Source: Paracoccus limosus (GTDB lineage Bacteria > Pseudomonadota > Alphaproteobacteria > Rhodobacterales > Rhodobacteraceae). Taken from it: a stretch of DNA of 64,000 nucleotides. Under the pieces are notes generated by a model. It saw only the letters and a list, made by a program, of their open reading frames with translations, had not been told where the DNA came from and did no database searches. Position numbers and translations under genes: made by a program. Within the stretch, counting starts at the first letter, position 1; each line of letters starts with the position of its first letter. Positions 13,558 through 33,326 of this stretch are shown piece after piece. Where the stretch lies: the NCBI RefSeq assembly GCF_009711185.1, contig NZ_WMIF01000015.1:1-64000 (forward strand), in the 5' to 3' direction.

Positions 13558-14136
13558 TCAGACCAGCGTGATGGCGAGGCCGCTCAGCAGCAGGCGGGCC
13601 GGCGGATGGCGCAGGTGGATGATGACGCGGTGGCCGCTGGTGCCCTCGTCCGGCTCGGGCAGCTCAATGCAGCACAGCGACAGCGCATCGCGGGTGATGC
13701 GCCATTCGCGATGGCCGCCGTCCTGCACCTGCCCGTCCTCATCGAAGCTGCGCAGGAACACATCCGCGACCAGCGGCGTATCGGCGCCGGCGATGCATTC
13801 GATGAAACATTTCGTGGCCGGTTCCGCGCTGTCGGGCAGCGGCGCCTCCAGCGTCATCCAGGTCAGGCCGGCGCCGCGCAGCTCGATGGCGGTCTCGCCA
13901 TCGGTGCCGGGCAGGATGTCATAGCGCATGCCATCGGGCAGGCAGGCGCCAAAGGCGGGGGTAATGGCGTTATAGCCGCCCGTCAGGCCCAGTTTCGGGC
14001 GCCCGACCATGGCCGAGCGCGCCTCGTCCAAAAGGTCGATGCGGGCGGATTGCAATGCGGTCAAGACCGAGGCGGCAGCTTCGAAATTGCGCACCGCGGC
14101 AGCATAAAGCGTCGTCAATTCAAATCGTCCTTTCAT
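13558..14136 (-). CDS. Hypothetical protein, small beta-rich member of the glycan cluster
   Basis: A 192-residue protein I cannot assign. Its first part is helical (TTLYAAAVRNFEAAASVLTAL); the rest is beta-rich (AIELRGAGLTWMTLEAPLP; CFIECIAGADTPLVADVFLRSF; RVIIHLRHPPARLLLSGLAI). The pattern resembles segments in the two larger unknown proteins of this cluster and is compatible with a carbohydrate-binding beta sandwich, though this is only an impression. The start overlaps the end of the GT2-GT4 fusion by 17 bp, so the two are translationally linked. Confidence 0.6.
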   Translation of the reverse strand: MKGRFELTTLYAAAVRNFEAAASVLTALQSARIDLLDEARSAMVGRPKLGLTGGYNAITPAFGACLPDGMRYDILPGTDGETAIELRGAGLTWMTLEAPLPDSAEPATKCFIECIAGADTPLVADVFLRSFDEDGQVQDGGHREWRITRDALSLCCIELPEPDEGTSGHRVIIHLRHPPARLLLSGLAITLV

Positions 14137-16762
14137 GAGCGTTCATCTGCCGTTTCCTGCAGACCGGCTCCTCCCAATGTCCTGCCAGCCAGTCCAGCAG
14201 GGGCGCAGCACTGCTGGCCCAATCCCTGACGCTGGCCGAGGCAGTCTCTGACACCCGCCGCAACGATGCGCGGTCCGCGTGCAGCGCCAAAATGCGCTGG
14301 ACGAAGGCCGCCTCGCAGTCCTCCTCGGGGATGACAAAACCGTTCACACCGTCCTCGATCGCCTCGCGCATGGCACCGACATCGGTGGCCAGCACGACCA
14401 CGCCCAGCCGCTGCGCTTCCAGCACCGACAGCGGCAGGCCCTCGTAATGCGAGGGCAGCACCATCACATCGGTCTGCAACAGCAGCCCGGTCAGCGCGCG
14501 CGGGCCCCGCATCGCGCCCATCTGGCGGGTCTGCGGCGGCATGTTGATCTCGACGGGGTTGTCGACGATGGCCTGTCCGGCGATCGCCAACTGGATCTCG
14601 GGCAATTGCTGCGCCAGCCCGGCATAGATCGTGGCCAGCCGCGCCACGCCCTTTTGCGGGTCGAGCCGGCCCATGAACAGCACGCGCAGCGGGCTTGTCG
14701 CCACCGCTCTGCCGCGCTCTTCCAGCACGGTGCGCACCCGGTCGGGATCTATCGGATAGCCCGGGGCGTTCACCACCGGCATCAGCTTGTTGCGCGGCAT
14801 GCCCTGCGCGTTCAGCCAGCCCGCCAGCCCGTGCGAGCAGGTCAGGAACAGGTCATAGGCATGCTCATAGGCCAGAGCCAGCTTGGGCGGGCCATAGTTG
14901 CGGCCATAGATGCTGCGTTCGACCAGATGCTCATGATCGATCATCAGCACGCCCTGCCGCCGCAGCCGGTCGGAGACCTTGTGCGTCGCGGCGGAATGGG
15001 CGTTGATGACCGCATCCATCGAGCCGAGCAGCCCGACCAGATCGGCGCGCTCCATGCCCTCGCCCCAAGCGGGTTCGGCGGTCCCCATGTATTCGGGCCC
15101 CGACCAGTCCAGCGTCGCGGGATCGGGCAGCCAGTTCACCGTCTCAAAGGATTGCAGCGCCCAGCCATCGCCATGGATCGGCCGGTCACTGGCCACGAAC
15201 AGATGCAGCCGGTGCCCGGCCGCCGCCAGTTCGCGCGCAAGGCTGGCCGCCACCTTTTCGACACCGCCAAAGTCAAAGATCGGCAGCACCAGCCCGATAT
15301 CCTTGCGGCCGGGCTGTTTCAGCAGCGGAAAGACCACACCGCCCGAACACAGCTTGCGCGGGATCTCGACCGCCATAGCGCGGCTGGAGGCGCCGCCCGG
15401 CTCGCGCCAGCGCCATTGTTGCTCCAGCGCCGGGCGAAAGCGGCTGCGGTGCATGGCCAGAAGAAAGCCGCGCATGAGCTCGCCCGCCGAATCTGTTTGC
15501 GGCGGCAGCGGCGACATGCCGTCGATCTCGATGCCCCAGCTGCTGACCGGATGCGGGTTCGGCGCGCGTTCGACATCGCGGATCCAGCCGATATCGCCCC
15601 AGCCGGCCAGCCGGCGCAGCCCGTCAAGCCCAAGGACCATGCCATCGGCAGGCCGTTCGGGATTGCCGCAATCATTGCTGATGACATGGCCGGTTTCCGA
15701 CAGGTCCAGAAAGAACAGGTCAAGGTCCGATGCCACCCGCCGCGCCTGCCGCCGTTCGCAGATCCACAGGAAATTGCGCAGGAGCCGCGCCTGTTTCAGC
15801 CGTGCCGAAACCCCCTCGCGCAGCACGATCAACAAGCTGGGGGCGTGATGGGCATAGGGTTCGGCGAAATGCGCGAAATAGCGCCGCTCCAGCTCGGCCA
15901 AAGTGATCGGCTCGGCATGGTCGGGGTCGGTGCACAGGATCGCGCTGTTGCCCTCGATGATGGCATAACGGGGGAAACGCTCGGCTTCCAGCGCGAGCAG
16001 CTTGGGACAGGAAAACAGCCAGCGGTGCTTGCTTTCCAGAAACCGCCGCAGCTCGCCGTCCAGATCGTGGGAATGCGACAGCATGCTGGCCGGGCGCTTG
16101 CGGTAAAGCAGCACCGGCTCAGCCAGAGGCAGGCCGCGAAAGCCGGCGGCGGCGGCCGAGAGCCAGAAATCCCAATCCTCATAGCCTTTTTTCATCGCCT
16201 CGTCGAAGCGGATGCCGGCCTCGAAGACGCGCCGGCGGATCAGGCTGCCGGCCTCGCAGATGTTGAGATGGGCGTGAAACAGCAGGCTGGGATCGCGGTC
16301 GACGATATAATGGCCCTTTTGCCCGAAAAAGTCAAAATCGGGGTAGAACCAATCGTGGTCCGGGTGGCGGGCCAGCGCGCGCAGGCAGGCCGCCCCCGCG
16401 CCTTCGGTCAGGGTATTGTCGGCATCCAGCAGCAGGATCGCGTCGATGTCGGGATCGGCCGCCAGCGCGGCCTTGATGCCGCGATTGCGCGCCGCGCTCA
16501 GCCCGCCATTGGGGTAATGCAGCGCCAGCATCGTCTCGCCCATGATCGCCTGCCAGCTGGCGATGCTGGCGCGCGTCTCGTCATGCGTGCAGCCGTCGTC
16601 GATCACCACCAGCCGGCGGATGGCGCCCGAGGCCATTTCGCGATGCACGGCGGCGATGGCATCGTCGAGCAGGACCGGATGGCCCTTGGTCGGAATGATG
16701 ACCGTGATCGGCGCGACTTCGGTTGCGGCGGCAGGCGGGACGGCAGGCATGGCAGGGGTCAC
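14120..16762 (-). CDS. Two-domain glycosyltransferase: GT2 (N-terminal) fused to GT4 (C-terminal)
   Basis: An 880-residue enzyme likely to add two sugars in sequence. Residues about 20-250 are a GT-A/GT2 domain: VIIPTKGHP (21-29), VVIDDG, GGLSAARNRG and the metal-binding LLLDADN (111-116), then KKGYEDWDFWLSAAAAGF, typical of the ED-W acceptor region. From about residue 490 a GT-B/GT4 domain begins (IGLVLPIFDFGGVEKVAASLA), with VLFMGRLDPQKGV and VMVLPSHYEGLPLSVLEAQRLGVVVLATDVGG-like sequence. A middle region of about 200 residues is unassigned. The GTG start (16762) overlaps the upstream stop. Confidence 0.85.
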   Translation of the reverse strand: MTPAMPAVPPAAATEVAPITVIIPTKGHPVLLDDAIAAVHREMASGAIRRLVVIDDGCTHDETRASIASWQAIMGETMLALHYPNGGLSAARNRGIKAALAADPDIDAILLLDADNTLTEGAGAACLRALARHPDHDWFYPDFDFFGQKGHYIVDRDPSLLFHAHLNICEAGSLIRRRVFEAGIRFDEAMKKGYEDWDFWLSAAAAGFRGLPLAEPVLLYRKRPASMLSHSHDLDGELRRFLESKHRWLFSCPKLLALEAERFPRYAIIEGNSAILCTDPDHAEPITLAELERRYFAHFAEPYAHHAPSLLIVLREGVSARLKQARLLRNFLWICERRQARRVASDLDLFFLDLSETGHVISNDCGNPERPADGMVLGLDGLRRLAGWGDIGWIRDVERAPNPHPVSSWGIEIDGMSPLPPQTDSAGELMRGFLLAMHRSRFRPALEQQWRWREPGGASSRAMAVEIPRKLCSGGVVFPLLKQPGRKDIGLVLPIFDFGGVEKVAASLARELAAAGHRLHLFVASDRPIHGDGWALQSFETVNWLPDPATLDWSGPEYMGTAEPAWGEGMERADLVGLLGSMDAVINAHSAATHKVSDRLRRQGVLMIDHEHLVERSIYGRNYGPPKLALAYEHAYDLFLTCSHGLAGWLNAQGMPRNKLMPVVNAPGYPIDPDRVRTVLEERGRAVATSPLRVLFMGRLDPQKGVARLATIYAGLAQQLPEIQLAIAGQAIVDNPVEINMPPQTRQMGAMRGPRALTGLLLQTDVMVLPSHYEGLPLSVLEAQRLGVVVLATDVGAMREAIEDGVNGFVIPEEDCEAAFVQRILALHADRASLRRVSETASASVRDWASSAAPLLDWLAGHWEEPVCRKRQMNAHERTI

Positions 16763-18135
16763 TCGGCCGCCAGCGGCAGGATGTTGCGCCGGGTGATGCG
16801 GAAACCGCGAAACAGCCCCCAGCTGTGGTCATTGGCGCGGTCCGAGGCCAGCGACACCGCCAGCAGGATGTCGGCGCGCCCGACGATCGGCTCGACCGGG
16901 ACGCAATGCGCCTGCGACCAGCCCTGCGGCGGCAGACCATGCACCCATGGGCCCATGCGGCGCTGCCAATAGCCATCTTCGTCCACCGCGCCATGCGGCG
17001 CCACGCCGACGCTGAAGTTCAGGCTGGGCGCGCGCGGATGGCCCACGTTCACCAGCGCCGACAGATGCGCCAGCGCCGGCAATTCGACCCCCCGGATCAC
17101 CGCGCAGACCGCGCCATGGCGCGAAGGATGCACCATGACCGCATCCTCGTTTTCCCAGAACGAGGCCGAGACATGGTCATCGACCAGCGGCGGTGTGGCA
17201 AAGAGTTCGGGCTTGGGCAGGTCCGAGGGCGACAGGAAACCTGCATCCGAGGTCAGCGCCGGCAGATCGCCGCCAAGGATCGGCGTCGCCTCGGGCAGGC
17301 GCACGCCGGGCAGGGATTTCCAGATCCTGAGCGCCAGGACATGGTCCTGCGGCTCGGCCTGTTCCAGATGCGCGGCATAGGCGGGATCGGGCACGGCATT
17401 GCCAAGGCCAAGGGCCAGGGGCTCTTTGCCGGCCCAGCTGAGCCGCAGCGCGCAATCCTGTTCGGGCACCTGCAGGGGGGCGGGCAGCGAAAAGCGCACC
17501 CAGCCCGCGTCGATGCCGCCAAGCGTCGGCGTCGCCCGCAGCGTATGGCCCTGACCCGAGGCGCAGACCAGCCGGCAGTCCAGATGCGCCAGCACCTCGC
17601 GGGGGGCGGTGGGAAACCAGATGTCCACCGCCGAGATCGAGGCCGCGCCCACCGGCAGGTTCTGCAGCAGCGACTGGCCGGGGGCGATGGTGATCAGCCG
17701 GCCGACCGGATCCCAGGACAGCGCCCGCATCGCGCGCGGATTGCCGAGCGTATAAAGGAAATTCTCGACCGATTTCAGGTTTTCTTCCAGGGACTGGTTT
17801 TCACGCCGCAGAATCGAGGCCGAAAGCCGCGCCGAACCGGCATCCTCTTCGGCCCTTTTCAGACGGGCGGACAGCAGATCGATAATATTGGCGGCGAGTT
17901 TCGACGTATCGTCGGGGTCGAAATCCAGCCGGGGCAGGCGGCTGAGATGATGGGGCAGCGGCACCGATTTTCCGCGCGCGGGTTTGCGCGTCACGATCGC
18001 CAGCGGCGCCTCGCCCGGGGTCAGGGGGCTTTCGCTGCGCAGCCCGTCGATTTCGACGCAGGAAATCGCGTCGCATTGAATGATGGCGCGGACGTTATCC
18101 CGCAATCCCTGCTGAACGAGGACGATAGAGCGCAT
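16759..18135 (-). CDS. Hypothetical coiled-coil protein heading the glycan cluster
   Basis: First gene of the cluster, 458 residues, not recognised. Residues about 85-135 form a charged, heptad-like helix (SARLKRAEEDAGSARLSASI then RRENQSLEENLKSVENFL), probably a coiled coil for oligomerisation. Two beta-rich stretches follow (GWVRFSLPAPLQVPEQDCAL; AVCAVIRGVELPALAHLSAL) that recall lectin-like sandwiches. No signal peptide or membrane span. The ATG at 18135 has GGAG ten bases upstream; a longer frame to 18285 is not protein-like. It could be a glycan-binding or length-sensing subunit, but this is speculation. Confidence 0.6.
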   Translation of the reverse strand: MRSIVLVQQGLRDNVRAIIQCDAISCVEIDGLRSESPLTPGEAPLAIVTRKPARGKSVPLPHHLSRLPRLDFDPDDTSKLAANIIDLLSARLKRAEEDAGSARLSASILRRENQSLEENLKSVENFLYTLGNPRAMRALSWDPVGRLITIAPGQSLLQNLPVGAASISAVDIWFPTAPREVLAHLDCRLVCASGQGHTLRATPTLGGIDAGWVRFSLPAPLQVPEQDCALRLSWAGKEPLALGLGNAVPDPAYAAHLEQAEPQDHVLALRIWKSLPGVRLPEATPILGGDLPALTSDAGFLSPSDLPKPELFATPPLVDDHVSASFWENEDAVMVHPSRHGAVCAVIRGVELPALAHLSALVNVGHPRAPSLNFSVGVAPHGAVDEDGYWQRRMGPWVHGLPPQGWSQAHCVPVEPIVGRADILLAVSLASDRANDHSWGLFRGFRITRRNILPLAAE

Positions 18136-18292
18136 GCTTTGTGTTCTCCAAACAGAGCAGACTCCCGCAGGAATCGAAGATGGAACAACCGAAAGAGCGT
18201 AAATGGCACAAATGGGCGCGCAGGAATTGCCGCGATCAGGCCTGGCTGCTGCAATTGGCGGGCTGATCGCGAACTTAATGCACAACTGGAGG

Positions 18293-18766: not shown

Positions 18767-19507
18767 ATGGAGCGGCCAGAGACGGCCAGGTTCGAGATCC
18801 GCATGGACGGGCTGGGCTATGAGGTGGCCGGCCGGCCCGTGCTGGAGGGGCTGGAGCTGAGGGTTGCGGCGCGCCGGATCGGTGTGGTCGGGCGCAATGG
18901 CTCGGGCAAGAGCACGCTGGCGCGGATATTGGCCGGGCTGATCGCGCCGACATCGGGCCAGTTGCGGCTGGGCGGCATCGACCCCTGTGCCGATCGCCGC
19001 GCCGCGCTGCGGCTGGTGGGCATCCTGTTCCAGAACCCCGAGCATCAGATCATCTTTCCCCGCGTCGGCGAGGAGATCGCCTTTGGCCTGCGCCAGCAGG
19101 GGTTGGGCAAGGCCGAGGCGCAGGCGCGGGTGGCGGCGATGCTGGCGCAGTTCGACAAGCGGCATTGGCAGGATGCGCCCGTCGACGCGCTGTCGCAGGG
19201 GCAAAAGCATCTGGTCTGCATGATGGCGGTGCTGGCGATGCGGCCGCAGCTGCTGATCCTCGACGAGCCCTATGCCGGGCTGGACATTCCGACGCGGCGC
19301 CAGCTGGGCCGCTATCTGCGCGCTGCCGCCCCGCATCTGCTGCATATTTCGCATGAGCCCGAGGATCTGGCCGATTGCGAGCGGCTGTTCTGGCTGGATC
19401 GTGGCCGCATCCGTGCCGAGGGGCCGGCGGCCGAGATCCTGCCGGTCTTTACTGCCGAGATGGACCGGCTGGGAGAGCTTGATGATATCGCTGACCTCGC
19501 CGGTTAG
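18767..19507 (+). CDS. bioM: Biotin ECF transporter ATPase BioM
   Basis: Energy-coupling ATPase of 246 residues for biotin uptake. Walker A is GRNGSGKST (42-50), the Q-loop FQNPEHQ (Gln90 region, typical of ECF/CbiO ATPases), Walker B LLILDEP (162-168) and the switch His at 196 (HISHEPED). The signature is LSQGQ (142-146) where most ABC proteins have LSGGQ; this is common in ECF ATPases. The ATG has GGGGAG six bases upstream. The gene overlaps bioN by 26 bp. I saw no BioR-type TTATMKATAA site upstream. Confidence 0.9.
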   Translation: MERPETARFEIRMDGLGYEVAGRPVLEGLELRVAARRIGVVGRNGSGKSTLARILAGLIAPTSGQLRLGGIDPCADRRAALRLVGILFQNPEHQIIFPRVGEEIAFGLRQQGLGKAEAQARVAAMLAQFDKRHWQDAPVDALSQGQKHLVCMMAVLAMRPQLLILDEPYAGLDIPTRRQLGRYLRAAAPHLLHISHEPEDLADCERLFWLDRGRIRAEGPAAEILPVFTAEMDRLGELDDIADLAG

Positions 19508-20099
19508 GACGCGGGCGCAGGACTGGCCGGCGGGGGCCAAGCTGGCGGCGCTGTGTCTGGTCTCGACCGGGTTGTTTCTGGCGCGCGGCCTGCCGGTGCA
19601 GCTGGGCGCGCTGGCCGTGGTGGCGGTGCTTTATGCGCTGCCGGGGCCGGTCTTTTTGCGCGCCGGGCTGCGCAGCCTGCGGGTGGTGCTGCCCTTTGTC
19701 GTGGTGCTGCTGGTCTGGCACGGGGTGCTGGGCGATCTGCGCGGCGGGCTGGTGGTTGTGCTGCGCATGGTGGTGCTGGTGGCGCTGGCGAACCTGGTCA
19801 CCATGACCACGGCGCTGGAAGAACTGGTCGATCTGCTGTCATGGCTGCTGACGCCGCTGCGCCGGCTGGGGCTGCGCACGCAACCCCTGGAGCTGGCGAT
19901 CCCCTTGGTGCTGCGCTTTACCCCGGTGCTGGTGGCGCGGGCGGGCCGGCTGGCCGAGGCATGGCGGGCGCGCTCGCGTCGGCGGCCGGGCTGGCAGCTG
20001 ATCCTGCCGATGACCCTGTTGGCACTGGACGATGCCGATCATGTCGGCGAAGCTTTGCGGGCGCGGGGCGGGGCCTTGCCGCCGTTGGATGACGATTGA
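19482..20099 (+). CDS. bioN: Biotin ECF transporter transmembrane protein BioN (T-component)
   Basis: A 205-residue inner-membrane protein that couples BioM to BioY. Hydrophobic spans are at about 20-60, 65-83, 88-110 and 139-152, and the two short Ala-Arg-Gly-like coupling motifs that contact the ATPase are at 163-165 (ARS) and 194-196 (ARG). The ATG at 19482 has GGGAG upstream and lies inside the end of bioM in another frame. Confidence 0.88.
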   Translation: MISLTSPVRTRAQDWPAGAKLAALCLVSTGLFLARGLPVQLGALAVVAVLYALPGPVFLRAGLRSLRVVLPFVVVLLVWHGVLGDLRGGLVVVLRMVVLVALANLVTMTTALEELVDLLSWLLTPLRRLGLRTQPLELAIPLVLRFTPVLVARAGRLAEAWRARSRRRPGWQLILPMTLLALDDADHVGEALRARGGALPPLDDD

Positions 20100-20112
20100 A
20101 ACGGAGACATCG

Positions 20113-20685
20113 ATGGAACGCAATATTGCGCAGGTTGCCCTGTTTGCCGCGATGATCGCGGCGCTGGGGCTGGTGCCGCAGATCTCGCTGGGTTTTGGCG
20201 TGCCCATTACCGCGCAGACGCTGGGCGTGATGCTGGCGGGGGCCGTGCTGGGCGCGCGGCGGGGGGCGGCTGCGGCGGGGCTTTTGATGCTGCTGGTGGC
20301 GCTTGGCCTGCCGCTTTTGGCCGGCGGCCGCGGCGGGCTGGGGGTGTTTACTTCGCCCACCGCAGGCTTTGCGCTTGGCTGGCCGGTCGCGGCCTTCGTG
20401 ACCGGGCTTTTTGTCGAGCGGGTGCGGCTGCGCTCGGCCGGGCTGGCAGCCGGGCTGGGGGCGGTGCTGGGCGGCATCGTCGTGCTGTATATCATGGGCG
20501 CGAGCGGACTTGCCATCGTCACCGGCCGTTCGCTGCCCGAGGCGTTCCGGCTGGTCGCGGTCTTTATCCCCGGCGATCTGCTGAAGGCCGGCATCACCGG
20601 TATGCTGGTGCAGGCGCTGGCACGGGTGCGTCCGGGCGCGCTGGCATGGCATCGCGGCGCTGCGACGGGTGGCCTGCGGCTGTGA
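20113..20685 (+). CDS. bioY: Biotin transporter BioY (S-component)
   Basis: Substrate-binding membrane protein of 190 residues with about six hydrophobic segments. Family landmarks include GVPITAQTLGVMLAGAVLGARRG, GGRGGLGVFTSPTAGFALGWPVAAFVTGL and the C-terminal FIPGDLLKAGIT. It binds biotin and works with or without BioMN in characterised relatives. The ATG at 20113 has CGGAG upstream; the stop overlaps the GTG start of the ligase gene. Confidence 0.92.
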   Translation: MERNIAQVALFAAMIAALGLVPQISLGFGVPITAQTLGVMLAGAVLGARRGAAAAGLLMLLVALGLPLLAGGRGGLGVFTSPTAGFALGWPVAAFVTGLFVERVRLRSAGLAAGLGAVLGGIVVLYIMGASGLAIVTGRSLPEAFRLVAVFIPGDLLKAGITGMLVQALARVRPGALAWHRGAATGGLRL

Positions 20686-21827
20686 CCCCGACCGGGGACT
20701 GGTTTGCGCTGAACGGCCGGGCCGAGGCGATCGGCTGCGGCGCGCGCGGGCAGAACCGGGATGCGGTGCGCGCGCTGCTGGACTGTCTGGCCCGGCGGCT
20801 GCCGATCCATGCCAGCCTTGATGGTGTGCGCGCGGCCGAGGGCGCGGGGCCGTGGCTTTATTGCCAAAGCTCGGGCTCGGGCGGGCGGGTCAAGACCATC
20901 CGCCGCAGCCAGTCCTCGTGGATCGCAAGCTTTCTGGTCAACCGCGACACCTATGGGCTTGGCGCGGCGGATCGCTATGCAGTGCTGGGCCAGCTGGGCC
21001 ATTCGCTGGCGCTTTATGCCAGCGTCGAGGCGCTGCATCTGGGCGCCGGGCTGGAGGTGCTGGCCAGCGACGGGCCGCGCCGCCAACTGGACGCGCTGGC
21101 CCGGGGCGTCAGCGTGATCTATGCCACGCCCACGCAATTGCAGCGCCTGCTGGGCGCGGCCGGGGCACCGCTGCCGGGCGTCGCACATGTGTTCTGCGGC
21201 GGCGGCCGGCTGGACCCCGCCTCACGCGCGGCGCTGGGGGAGCTGTTCCCTGCGGCCATGATCCGCGAATTCTATGGCGCCTCAGAGACGAGCTTCATCG
21301 CCATTGCCGATGGCGCGACGCCGCCCGGTTCGGTCGGGCGCGCCTATCCGGGGGTCGAACTGGACCTGACCGACTGCGCCGAGATCCGGGTGCGCAGCCC
21401 CTATCTGGCGGCGGGCTATGCCGAGCCGGACCTGAAGCTGGCCTTGCAGGATGGCTGGCTGGCCACCGGCGACGTCGGTGCGCTGGACGCGGCCGGCCAT
21501 CTGTTCCTGCGCGGGCGGCTGGGGCGGATGGTGACGGTCGCCGACCGCAACCTGTTTCTGGAGGATGTCGAGGCGGCGATGCGCGCGGCGGGTGCCGGCC
21601 TTTGTGCGGCGCTGGCGCTGCCCGATCCTTTGCGCGGCCATTCGCTGCTGGCGGTGGTCGAGGGGGCGCCGGACGATGCGCTGGCCGCCCGGCTGCGCCG
21701 GCATTGCCGCGCCACGCTGGGCGATCACGCCGCGCCGCGCCGGGTGGTGTTTCTGGAGCGGCTGCCGCTTTTGGCCTCGGACAAGCCCGATCTGGCCGGG
21801 CTGGCCGCGCGATTCGCGGCGCCATGA
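20682..21827 (+). CDS. AMP-dependent acyl-CoA ligase-like protein (YhfT-like), short form
   Basis: A 381-residue member of the AMP-binding (ANL) superfamily that would activate a carboxylic acid to its CoA thioester. Visible motifs are the P-loop SSGSGGRVK (about 62-70), FYGASETSFIA, the GWLATGDVG hinge and GRLGRMVTVADRNLFLEDVE. It is about 100-150 residues shorter than typical ligases, mainly in the N-terminal part. The GTG start overlaps the bioY stop and its own stop overlaps the thiolase ATG. Bacillus subtilis has a bioY homologue (yhfU) with a ligase (yhfT) and a thiolase (yhfS), so this looks like the same functional unit. The natural acid is unknown; biotin or a pimelate-like precursor are candidates. 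Confidence 0.75.
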   Translation: MTPTGDWFALNGRAEAIGCGARGQNRDAVRALLDCLARRLPIHASLDGVRAAEGAGPWLYCQSSGSGGRVKTIRRSQSSWIASFLVNRDTYGLGAADRYAVLGQLGHSLALYASVEALHLGAGLEVLASDGPRRQLDALARGVSVIYATPTQLQRLLGAAGAPLPGVAHVFCGGGRLDPASRAALGELFPAAMIREFYGASETSFIAIADGATPPGSVGRAYPGVELDLTDCAEIRVRSPYLAAGYAEPDLKLALQDGWLATGDVGALDAAGHLFLRGRLGRMVTVADRNLFLEDVEAAMRAAGAGLCAALALPDPLRGHSLLAVVEGAPDDALAARLRRHCRATLGDHAAPRRVVFLERLPLLASDKPDLAGLAARFAAP

Positions 21828-22933
21828 CCGCGCCGGTGATCGTCGCGGCCCGGCGCAGCGCGGTGGTGCCGCGGGGCGGCGCCTTGGCGCGGCTGGGGAT
21901 CCATGATCTGGCCGCGCCCGTGCTGGCGGATCTGCTGCGCGACGCGGGGCTGGCTGCGGATCGGGTCGGCGAGCTGATCCTTGCCAATGCCCTTGGCGGC
22001 GGCGGTAATCCGGCGCGGCTGGCGGCGCTGGCCGCCGGCCTGCCCGAGCGCGTCGCGGGGCTGAGCCTTGACCGGCAATGTTGCGGCGGCATGGATGCGG
22101 TGCTGCTGGCCGATGCGCTGATCCGGGGCGGGTTGCATGAGGTGGTGGTGGCCGGCGGCGCCGAAAGCTATTCGCGCCGCCCGTTGCGGCTGCGCACCGA
22201 TCCCGAGGGCGGCGCGCCTGTGGCCTATGACCGCCCGCCCTTTACCCCCTGGCCGGATCGCGACCCCGAGATGCCCGAGGCGGCCGAGGCTTTGGCCCGC
22301 GCGCTGGCGATCCCGCGCGCCGATCAGGACCAATGGACGGTTGCCAGCCATGCCCGGGCGCTGGCTGCGCGCGACCGGCTGCGGGCCGAGATCACGCCGC
22401 TGCTGGGGCAGGATCACGACGCCTTTGCCCGCGCCATCTCGCTGCGCACCTGCGGCCGGGCGCCGGTGCTCTGTGGCAGCGTCACCGCCGCCAATACGGC
22501 GGTGGCGGCGGATGGGGCGGGGCTGTGCCTGCTGATCCCCGGCGCGCGGGCGCGGCGGCTGGGACTTTCGGGGCTGCGGATCGTGCATGGCGTGACGCTG
22601 GGCGCCGATCCGGCGCTGCCCGGGCTGGCGCCGGTGCCGGCGATCCGGGCGGTGCTGGCCGAGACCGGGCTGGCGCCCGGGGCCTTTGCCGCCATCGAGG
22701 TGATGGAGGCCTTTGCCGTGCAGGCCATCGCCTGCCTGCGCGAAACCGGCCTGCCGCCCGAGCGGGTCAATCCGGGCGGCGGCGCCTTGGCACGCGGCCA
22801 TCCCATCGGCGCCTCGGGCGCGATCAACGTGGTGCGGCTGTTTCACGAATTGCGCGAGCCGGGGCAATTGGGCCTGTGCGCCATTGCCGCCGCCGGGGGG
22901 CTGGGCACCGCGCTGGTGGTTGAGCGGGTCTAG
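21824..22933 (+). CDS. Thiolase family protein (acetyl-CoA acetyltransferase-like, YhfS-like)
   Basis: A 369-residue thiolase. The nucleophilic cysteine lies in LDRQCCGGMDA (about residue 85-86), the conserved His in GGGALARGHPIGASGA, and the second Cys in LCAIAAAGGLGTALV near the end. It is slightly short of the usual 390-400 residues. Located after bioMNY and the ligase gene with a 4-bp overlap, it would cleave or form a beta-ketoacyl-CoA connected with biotin or its precursor. The stop codon shares the palindrome CTAG with the stop of the convergent nitroreductase gene. Confidence 0.82.
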   Translation: MTAPVIVAARRSAVVPRGGALARLGIHDLAAPVLADLLRDAGLAADRVGELILANALGGGGNPARLAALAAGLPERVAGLSLDRQCCGGMDAVLLADALIRGGLHEVVVAGGAESYSRRPLRLRTDPEGGAPVAYDRPPFTPWPDRDPEMPEAAEALARALAIPRADQDQWTVASHARALAARDRLRAEITPLLGQDHDAFARAISLRTCGRAPVLCGSVTAANTAVAADGAGLCLLIPGARARRLGLSGLRIVHGVTLGADPALPGLAPVPAIRAVLAETGLAPGAFAAIEVMEAFAVQAIACLRETGLPPERVNPGGGALARGHPIGASGAINVVRLFHELREPGQLGLCAIAAAGGLGTALVVERV

Positions 22934-23601
22934 AAGCCGCGAAAGCTGGCGTATTCGTCAAGCCCGGCGCGTTCGGTGCGCAGCCGGTTTTCCGGCGCAT
23001 CCGGGTCGGCATGACCCAGCGCCACGCCGCAGACCACCAGTTGACCTGCGGGCAGGTCCAGCAGCCGATGCACCTGCGGCCCGTAATTGGCCAAGGCGCC
23101 GATGCCGGTCGCGCCCAGCCCCCGCGCCTCGGCCGCCAGAAACAGCGCCATCAGGCTCATCCCCAGATCCATGAAACAGCCCTTGCCCATGGCGCGGTCG
23201 ATGGTCACGACCATGCCGACCGGCGCGCCGAAAAAGCCGTAATTGCGCAGGAATTGCTGCTGGCGTCCGACGATGTCGCGCCGCGCGATCCCCAGCGCCT
23301 GATACAGCGCATAGCCCGCCGCGCGCTGGCGCTGTTTCAGCACCGGCGGCATCGGGTCGGGGAAATAGGAATATTCGCTGGTCTCGGGGGTGCCGGCGCC
23401 GATCTCGGCCTGCAGGGCGCGGGTCAGATCGGCCAAAGGCGCGCCGGTCAGGACGTGGAAATGCCCCGGTTGCAGATTGGCACCGCTGGGTGCGGTGCGG
23501 GCCAGACGCAGGATCTCGGCCACGGTGTCACGGTCCACCGGCTGGTCGGTATAGGCCCGGACCGAGCGGCGGCCGCGCAAGAGCTGGCTGAATTCCTGCA
23601 T
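22930..23601 (-). CDS. Nitroreductase family flavoprotein
   Basis: A 223-residue FMN-dependent NAD(P)H oxidoreductase. The typical N-terminus FSQLLRGRRSVRAYTDQPV and FMN-contacting ARTAPSGANLQPGHFHV are present, as is GLGATGIGALANY in the C-terminal part. An ATG at 23601 has AAGGAA upstream and fits the usual family start; an in-frame ATG at 23616 is an alternative. The substrate is not predictable. It faces the thiolase gene, the two stops overlapping by 4 bp. Confidence 0.85.
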   Translation of the reverse strand: MQEFSQLLRGRRSVRAYTDQPVDRDTVAEILRLARTAPSGANLQPGHFHVLTGAPLADLTRALQAEIGAGTPETSEYSYFPDPMPPVLKQRQRAAGYALYQALGIARRDIVGRQQQFLRNYGFFGAPVGMVVTIDRAMGKGCFMDLGMSLMALFLAAEARGLGATGIGALANYGPQVHRLLDLPAGQLVVCGVALGHADPDAPENRLRTERAGLDEYASFRGF

Positions 23602-23700
23602 CGCATTCCTTGCCATTTCGGGCCTCGTGCCATTTCCGACCTCGTCCCATGGCCGGGCGCGGGCAAATTGTCGGATGCCGGGGCGGGGGTCAAGCCGGGC

Positions 23701-33109: not shown

Positions 33110-33189
33110 GGTATCGGAACCTTTCCTGATCACAGAATGGCCCCAAGGCGATCGCAGGACAGGCCACGGCATGCCATGACCAGCCCCAT

Positions 33190-33316
33190 TCTCTTTCATC
33201 CGGACTATGACCGTCGGCCCCGGAATTTCACCGGATCTGCTGACCCCCTGCCGGCTGGCAGGGGCGCTCGCGGGCTATCACCGCCGGTGGGGAGTCTCAC
33301 CCCGCCCCGAGAACGT
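33190..33316 (-). promoter_or_regulatory. FMN riboswitch (RFN element) controlling ribH
   Basis: Read on the minus strand, the conserved blocks occur in order: GTTCTCGGGGCGGGGTGAGA, CTCCCCACCGGCGGT, AGCCCGCGAGCGCC, GGTCAGCAGATCCGGTGA, ATTCCGGGGCCGACGGT and AGTCCGGATGAAAGAG. A variable stem (ccctgccggctggcaggg) is also present. FMN binding would lower expression of ribH, whose ATG is about 80 bp downstream. Confidence 0.95.
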
Positions 33317-33326
33317 TGTATTTCTG

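Follow-up and report, generated by a model that had tools for sequence, protein, structure and literature searches.

Here, we identify a run of five genes in Paracoccus limosus (Rhodobacteraceae), bioM-bioN-bioY followed by a ligase gene and a thiolase gene, in which a predicted biotin importer is joined to two further enzymes. The genes lie on the + strand at positions 18767-22933 of the window, i.e., the 64,000-nucleotide stretch that was analyzed (positions 1 to 64,000 of contig NZ_WMIF01000015.1, assembly GCF_009711185.1). The linkage of the ligase with the thiolase and with bioY is more than chance. New here are the loss of the base Cys in the thiolase, the occurrence in other lineages of sets of a medium-chain dehydrogenase/reductase (MDR) and a thioesterase beside the pair, and the absence of BioB from most ligase carriers in the Rhodobacteraceae. 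We tentatively propose that the genes form a biotin-vitamer salvage module, in which a carboxylate would be activated, lengthened in a decarboxylative two-carbon addition resembling that of 3-ketoacyl-acyl carrier protein synthases (KAS), reduced, and released; the substrate, the direction, the malonyl donor and the reactions are what we infer. Many bacteria require external biotin. If the proposal is true, auxotrophs could live on material that is possibly counted as inactive in biotin assays, and models of how soil, sea and host communities exchange vitamins would have to change.

The thiolase-fold enzyme (369 amino acids, ATG start, 21824..22933, +) belongs to the thiolases by family and by fold: it scores 267.9 bits against TIGR01930 (cut-off 240.55), and its predicted structure (predicted local distance difference test score 92.6) has thiolases as best PDB matches, with TM scores of about 0.9. 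In these enzymes, Cys378 is the base that takes the substrate proton, while Asn316 and His348 form the enolate oxyanion hole (PMC3406046). Alignment of the window thiolase with those of Ralstonia and Bacillus placed its catalytic residues; Cys86 and His326 are kept, Met294 replaces the Asn of the NEAF motif and Ala355 replaces the base Cys. The genome also encodes four ordinary thiolases, in which the Asn and the base Cys are both retained (a fifth, SCP2-like L084, was left out). We aligned 125 linked thiolases, comprising 40 from Rhodobacteraceae loci, 6 from plasmid loci, 78 from the wide scan described below, and that of the window; 123 of these are readable, L039 (frameshifted after the first motif) and L091 (truncated) being left out. 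The fold, about 35% identity, the nucleophilic Cys and the catalytic His (both kept in 123/123) are shared with the Zoogloea ramigera-type thiolase and Ralstonia PhaA. By contrast, the base, Cys378 of the Zoogloea thiolase, is replaced in all 123 sequences (78 Gly, 38 Ala, 4 Ser, 3 Pro). The oxyanion-hole Asn of NEAF, i.e., Asn316, is kept in 82 sequences and is Met in the 41 that make up the branch of the window. The residue two positions before the catalytic His follows this division, being Arg in 40 of the 41 Met-type and Leu in 80 of the 82 Asn-type thiolases. The GHP letters are intact in 119 of the 123, with GHA or GHG in four actinobacterial sequences. In a tree, 32 chosen linked thiolases form one clade (0.947) apart from the four ordinary ones, and the 11 Met-type members form one clade (1.0) within it; given the few outgroups, this is weak evidence for a single origin of the linked thiolases. 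With the base Cys gone in every readable member, there is reason to doubt the annotation "acetyl-CoA acetyltransferase" in this clade; judged from the alignment, it should be wrong. In the left-out L039 (Rhodobacteraceae genome G131), the frame is broken near the end of the gene, by contig error or decay.

The association of ligase, thiolase and bioY extends far beyond P. limosus. A search with the ligase of the window (E <= 1e-30) gave matches in 42 of 248 genomes of the Rhodobacteraceae; a search with the thiolase of a distant relative returned four genomes, two of them new (G100 and G210) and both with bioMNY, ligase and thiolase together, which brings the carriers in the family to at least 44 of 248. 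In the 40 loci compared (the 42 without the window and without G195, whose match is very short and located where a contig ends), the ligase adjoins the thiolase without exception, and in 33 the distance from the ligase to bioY is at most 6.5 kb. Since bioY is mostly on the other strand than the ligase (the same strand in only 4 of these 33 loci), inheritance of a single operon does not suffice to explain the association. A ligase alignment was then run against one genome from each of 84,980 species and the best 80 loci were taken. These include Streptomyces, Nocardiopsis, Arthrobacter, Rhizobiaceae, Azospirillum, Shimia, Bartonella, Erwinia, Pantoea, Rouxiella and Leptolyngbya; they are not independent (14 are from Shimia and 12 from Azospirillum), and counts are per locus rather than per independent event. 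The thiolase adjoins the ligase in 78 of them, the exceptions being L089 and L161, of which L161 is cut off by the end of its contig, and bioY lies within 6.5 kb in 67. bioY together with the ligase-thiolase pair thus occurs in Alpha- and Gammaproteobacteria, Actinomycetota and one cyanobacterium, and bioM and bioN mostly adjoin bioY in the loci examined. A first-pass annotation of the window, made from its sequence alone, had argued from this operon and its Bacillus subtilis counterpart for recurrence across distant phyla; the recurrence is borne out, and the linkage is not rare beyond these two cases. Ligase relatives are also present on nine Paracoccus plasmid records, where the closest annotated ones are 61-69% identical and bioMNY or bioY adjoins in two annotated regions examined. 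The viral contigs searched gave no match.

Some loci have other neighbors. aroQ, encoding a type II 3-dehydroquinate dehydratase, is upstream of the ligase in 8 of the 40 Rhodobacteraceae loci, and in several Rhodobacterales it lies 5' of the ligase, mostly directly (L041, L044, L047, L050, L051, L052, L062, L068 and L078); simple patterns found no accB or accC in the fetched stretches of nine loci. In six Bartonella loci (L095-L097, L100, L109 and L127), the ligase-thiolase pair is present with bioY not within 6.5 kb, and in L096 the gene just upstream of the pair is ilvD (1191.7 bits versus 710).

In other lineages, additional enzymes accompany the pair. When the unassigned neighbors of the best 80 scan loci were clustered into families, with a distance limit of 6.5 kb, a MECR-like MDR oxidoreductase was found in 37 loci and a YbgC/FadM-like hotdog thioesterase in 34, of which 33 have both. 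Each of these two families is spread over 15 genus-level groups; two other families occur in fewer. The nearest solved relatives of the MDR are 3gms and then the human mitochondrial 2-enoyl thioester reductase (E about 1e-25). Although 3gms, a putative NADPH:quinone reductase, is a closer relative of the MDR than MECR is, the nearest PDB relatives with a named function are MECR/ETR1, and the INPSD...GAY motif, which we take to be telling for these enzymes, is kept. The accessory set is reductive and comes with a release enzyme. In Erwinia aphidicola, the order is short-chain dehydrogenase/reductase (SDR)-bioM-bioN-bioY-MDR (reversed)-thioesterase-ligase-thiolase-enoyl-CoA hydratase (reversed), followed by a LuxR-type regulator, and the nine genes with this regulator are flanked by lpd and acnB. 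E. persicina has the nine genes, again with lpd and acnB as flanks. In Pantoea sp. A4 and Rouxiella silvae, the nine genes occur in identical order, and neither lpd nor acnB is in the fetched flanks, which suggests that the nine-gene island is transferred as a whole. Five plasmid regions served as a control: they contain more distant MDR relatives (31-36% identical), and neither a ligase nor a thiolase nor bioY was found within 6-7 kb of these. In Rhizobium, L073, L090, L093, L094 and L123, several of them on plasmids, have MDR-thioesterase-ligase-thiolase without a nearby transporter; BioB was not found in the three genomes searched (L090, L094 and L123).

Most carriers in the Rhodobacteraceae are without BioB. 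BioB scores over its family cut-off in 33 of the 248 genomes; among the 42 ligase carriers only 4 have it, leaving 38 without it, a few of the 42 genomes being only 75-85% complete. Exactly one BioY and no BioB are present in 33 of the 42, BioY is absent among the listed matches in G209 and G216, and BioB is not over the cut-off in the two additional carriers G100 and G210. Outside the family, carriers from 32 of the 80 scan loci were searched, and BioB is absent in 19. Because most Rhodobacteraceae carriers are without BioB, feeding a precursor into biotin synthesis cannot be the general role of the genes, and pimelate-type metabolism, which the first-pass annotation had raised as one setting, is unlikely in that capacity. 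The genome of the window itself has BioB (contig C22:35186-36103), adjoined by a second bioY (the two genes together at C22:34710-36103); this bioYB arrangement resembles that reported for P. denitrificans (PMC4554459).

We suggest the following course of events. BioMNY would import biotin and side-chain-shortened vitamers, with bisnorbiotin as a candidate, and the ligase would activate the carboxylate to an acyl thioester. The thiolase-fold enzyme would take over the acyl group on its Cys and condense it with two carbons provided by a malonyl donor. As in KAS enzymes, the enolate would arise by decarboxylation, and the base Cys would be dispensable. Subsequently, the 3-keto group would be reduced, dehydrated and reduced again, in some lineages by the SDR, the enoyl-CoA hydratase and the MECR-like reductase and elsewhere by enzymes borrowed from fatty acid synthesis, with a nitroreductase as one possible replacement in Rhodobacterales. 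Finally, the thioesterase would release biotin. By known mechanism, loss of the base Cys speaks against condensation with acetyl-CoA and against thiolysis, but a condensation in which a malonyl donor is decarboxylated would be compatible with it. The remaining Cys, His and Asn of the Asn-type branch resemble the set of KAS III. The enzyme set would carry out one two-carbon turn on a free acid and again release a free acid; beside a biotin importer, in organisms without BioB, the simplest such acid would be biotin with a side chain that is two carbons short. Bisnorbiotin is a human biotin metabolite that accounts for 13-23% of total urinary biotin (PMC9106636). It is possible, albeit somewhat doubtful, that this amounts to an undescribed repair pathway, in which bacteria that do not make biotin import shortened catabolites and rebuild the valeryl chain with a portable kit whose thiolase has been turned into a KAS-like, decarboxylating enzyme. 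The BioZ/FabH-type KAS III enzymes of the alphaproteobacterial pimelate pathway, which carry out a Cys-based decarboxylative condensation in biotin metabolism (PMC11089781), provide an analogy only: they are of another family, whereas the enzyme here is a thiolase subfamily, and most of the carriers searched are without BioB.

A number of observations weigh against the salvage model. The SDR and the enoyl-CoA hydratase are each present in only 7 of the best 80 scan loci, and they are not one conserved pair, the SDRs being 26-47% and the hydratases 27-33% identical to the seeds; with such low identity, these steps look recruited more than once. The accessory set is nearly missing in the window's own group: within 6.5 kb, the 40 Rhodobacteraceae loci have no MDR, one thioesterase, one SDR and no enoyl-CoA hydratase, while L072 has a piece of an MDR beyond this distance. 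In the window's branch, the loss of the Asn to Met weakens enolate chemistry. bioY is not within 6.5 kb in 13 of the best 80 scan loci, some of which are at contig ends. The absence of BioB is equally common among Rhodobacteraceae genomes that do not carry the ligase (Fisher p 0.62), and BioB is present in 13 of the 32 searched carriers outside the family. BioY of these loci has no pocket change specific to ligase carriers, and bisnorbiotin is not linked to these genes in the literature matches listed. Operator sites do not support control of these loci by BioR or BirA: the BioR box TTATMKATAA, with up to one mismatch, is absent from the window; over 126 loci (1.73 Mb), two perfect BioR sites stand against 2.0 expected; and BirA-type boxes in eight chosen loci gave weak matches, none convincing.

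For the Met-type branch of the window, in which the KAS-like role is weaker, an alternative to be taken seriously is transfer of the acyl group to acyl carrier protein (ACP), from which ordinary fatty acid synthesis would continue. Extended to all carriers, this alternative holds that the ligase makes a CoA or AMP ester of biotin or a vitamer and that the thiolase-fold enzyme passes the acyl group to a thiol or amine, on ACP, a carrier protein or a lysine, so that the vitamin is trapped or delivered without formation of a C-C bond; any chain building would fall to ordinary fatty acid synthesis. It would account for the observation that the two branches share no more than the nucleophilic Cys and the catalytic His, for the loss in the window's branch of both residues needed for enolate chemistry, and for the scarcity of linked reductase and dehydratase genes in the Rhodobacteraceae clusters. 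However, it leaves unexplained why MDR, thioesterase, SDR and hydratase join the pair in other lineages, and we consider it unlikely as an explanation for the whole group. The substrate might also not be biotin-like at all. When acetyl-CoA carboxylase fails under biotin shortage, the ligase and the reductive enzymes might allow exogenous fatty acids to be used or extended in a biotin-sparing route, an idea that suits gene families of acyl-CoA metabolism and the repression of the yhfS-yhfT promoter by BirA plus biotin in a Staphylococcus aureus reporter strain (PMC6391492). But a malonyl-independent condensation requires the very Cys that is lost in all 123 readable thiolases and the pair usually adjoins its own biotin importer, making this route improbable.

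The remaining two explanations concern the making and the breakdown of biotin. Activation and elongation of a dicarboxylate (e.g., glutarate to pimelate) could supply a precursor for de novo synthesis, comparable to BioZ; the set of reactions would suit an elongation from C5 to C7, and BioB is present in the window's genome and in 13 of the 32 carriers searched outside the family. In the 38 of 42 Rhodobacteraceae carriers and the 19 of 32 others without BioB, however, such a precursor could not be finished, and we give this explanation little credence. Least of all do we expect β-oxidative shortening of the side chain, i.e., biotin catabolism, which strikes us as very improbable. Ligase and thiolase are nominally the first and last steps of β-oxidation, but thiolysis requires the lost Cys, the oxidoreductase found beside the pair belongs to the enoyl reductases by type, a thioesterase is present, and no acyl-CoA dehydrogenase was recognized by eye among the printed examples of the multi-genus neighbor families. 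The first-pass annotation had allowed for either shortening or rebuilding of the side chain; rebuilding is favored by the accessory genes elsewhere, and shortening by thiolysis is unlikely with the base Cys gone throughout.

The closest parallel in gene content is yhfU-yhfT-yhfS of Bacillus and Staphylococcus, in which bioY, ligase and thiolase families are likewise tied to biotin uptake. The window operon differs in holding a dedicated ATPase and T component, and its two enzymes fall far under the cut-offs of the models that we take to stand for Bacillus YhfT and YhfS: the ligase reaches 152.9 bits against PRK07638 (cut-off 518) and is only the third-best PRK07638 match in its own genome, and the thiolase reaches 238.2 bits against PRK06690 (cut-off 498). 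The cut-off of each of the two models is exceeded in one of 14 control genomes. An identity of the window proteins with YhfT and YhfS is thus not upheld, and the label "yhfUTS-like", given at first pass, rests on gene content. yhfS-yhfT is reported to be a BirA target in S. aureus (PMC6391492, PMC7235819), and according to a 2024 review, BirA represses bioY and the yhfS and yhfT genes downstream of it in both B. subtilis and S. aureus (PMC11089781); as these accounts present them, the yhfS-yhfT names are based on homology only (PMC6391492, PMC7235819, PMC11089781). Among transporters, bioMNY2 on the megaplasmid of Paracoccus denitrificans has the same families as the window and, as in the window, no BioR site is reported for it; the account of bioMNY2 in PMC4554459, as far as it was available, makes no mention of a linked ligase or thiolase. 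In the open-licence literature, the titles and abstract openings among the matches listed hold no description of the gene set or of bacterial biotin rebuilding.

In the window, the five genes form one operon, as the first-pass annotation had proposed, with an overlap or at most 13 bp at every junction: a 26-bp overlap of bioM and bioN, a 13-bp gap, and then two 4-bp overlaps. bioM (18767..19507, +) encodes the ATPase of an energy-coupling factor (ECF) transporter; it scores 88.9 bits against Pfam ABC_tran (cut-off 25), and its top NCBIfam matches are ECF ATPases with scores under their cut-offs. bioN (19482..20099, +), the ECF T component, scores 32.2 bits against Pfam CbiQ (cut-off 25); its start, ATG 19482, was read from the sequence and gives the 26-bp overlap. 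bioY (20113..20685, +; 190 amino acids, ATG start), the biotin S component, scores 109.9 bits against Pfam BioY (cut-off 25). With BioY over its family cut-off and A and T components linked to it, BioMNY is a predicted biotin importer, identified by family match. The ligase gene (20682..21827, +) encodes an acyl-adenylate-forming enzyme of the ANL family, with both Pfam domains over their cut-offs (AMP-binding, PF00501, 67.1 bits; AMP-binding_C, PF13193, 38.5 bits) and a YG.SE motif. Its start was likewise read from the sequence: GTG 20682 (381 amino acids) is more likely than ATG 20646 (393 amino acids), because it gives a 4-bp GTGA overlap and because the overlap with bioY is likewise 4 bp in the relatives annotated in P. 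yeei and P. aminovorans. Residues 1-72 of the 393-residue version have no match to the AMP-binding domain. The enzyme is short at the N terminus and its P-loop, SSGSGGRVK, is diverged; the catalytic Lys of motif A10 is present in 126 of 127 ligase sequences, the remaining one having a gap.

BioY of the window matches the BioY structure 4dve (E 1.4e-21). Aligned with 4dve, the window protein retains the GDxxK stretch and has Arg for the Asn of GGNGG and Ala for the Arg of GYR; we take these residues of 4dve to be the biotin-binding ones. We aligned 106 ligase-linked BioY proteins with 21 from genomes or places without a ligase match. The GGRGG stretch is present in the ligase-linked proteins examined and absent from 19 of the 21 unlinked ones. 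Of the two exceptions, L185 is in fact ligase-linked (L186), and L175 (stretch L187) lies in a bioMNY without a nearby ligase or thiolase. The motif may therefore follow the M/N module rather than the ligase.

Although the five genes at 18767-22933 are confirmed, the segment so delimited by the first-pass annotation ends too early. The stop of the thiolase gene overlaps by 4 bp with a convergent gene (22930..23616, -) for a flavoenzyme of the nitroreductase family, which scores 95.9 bits against Pfam Nitroreductase (cut-off 23.5). A nitroreductase is near the ligase and thiolase genes in 13 of the 40 Rhodobacteraceae loci, and in several of them it overlaps bioY and is convergent with ligase-thiolase. 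The nitroreductase gene of the window is probably an associated gene and may be a stand-in for the enoyl reductase in Rhodobacterales. Its nearest structures are 3gr3 and NfnB (7dp0-7dp2).

Elsewhere in the window, a DUF6212 protein is encoded upstream of the operon (16759-18285, -), and an adjoining large frame (14120-16762) resembles a glycosyltransferase by eye. The sole Rfam match in the window at gathering thresholds is a flavin mononucleotide (FMN) riboswitch at 33184-33318 (-; 110.4 bits).

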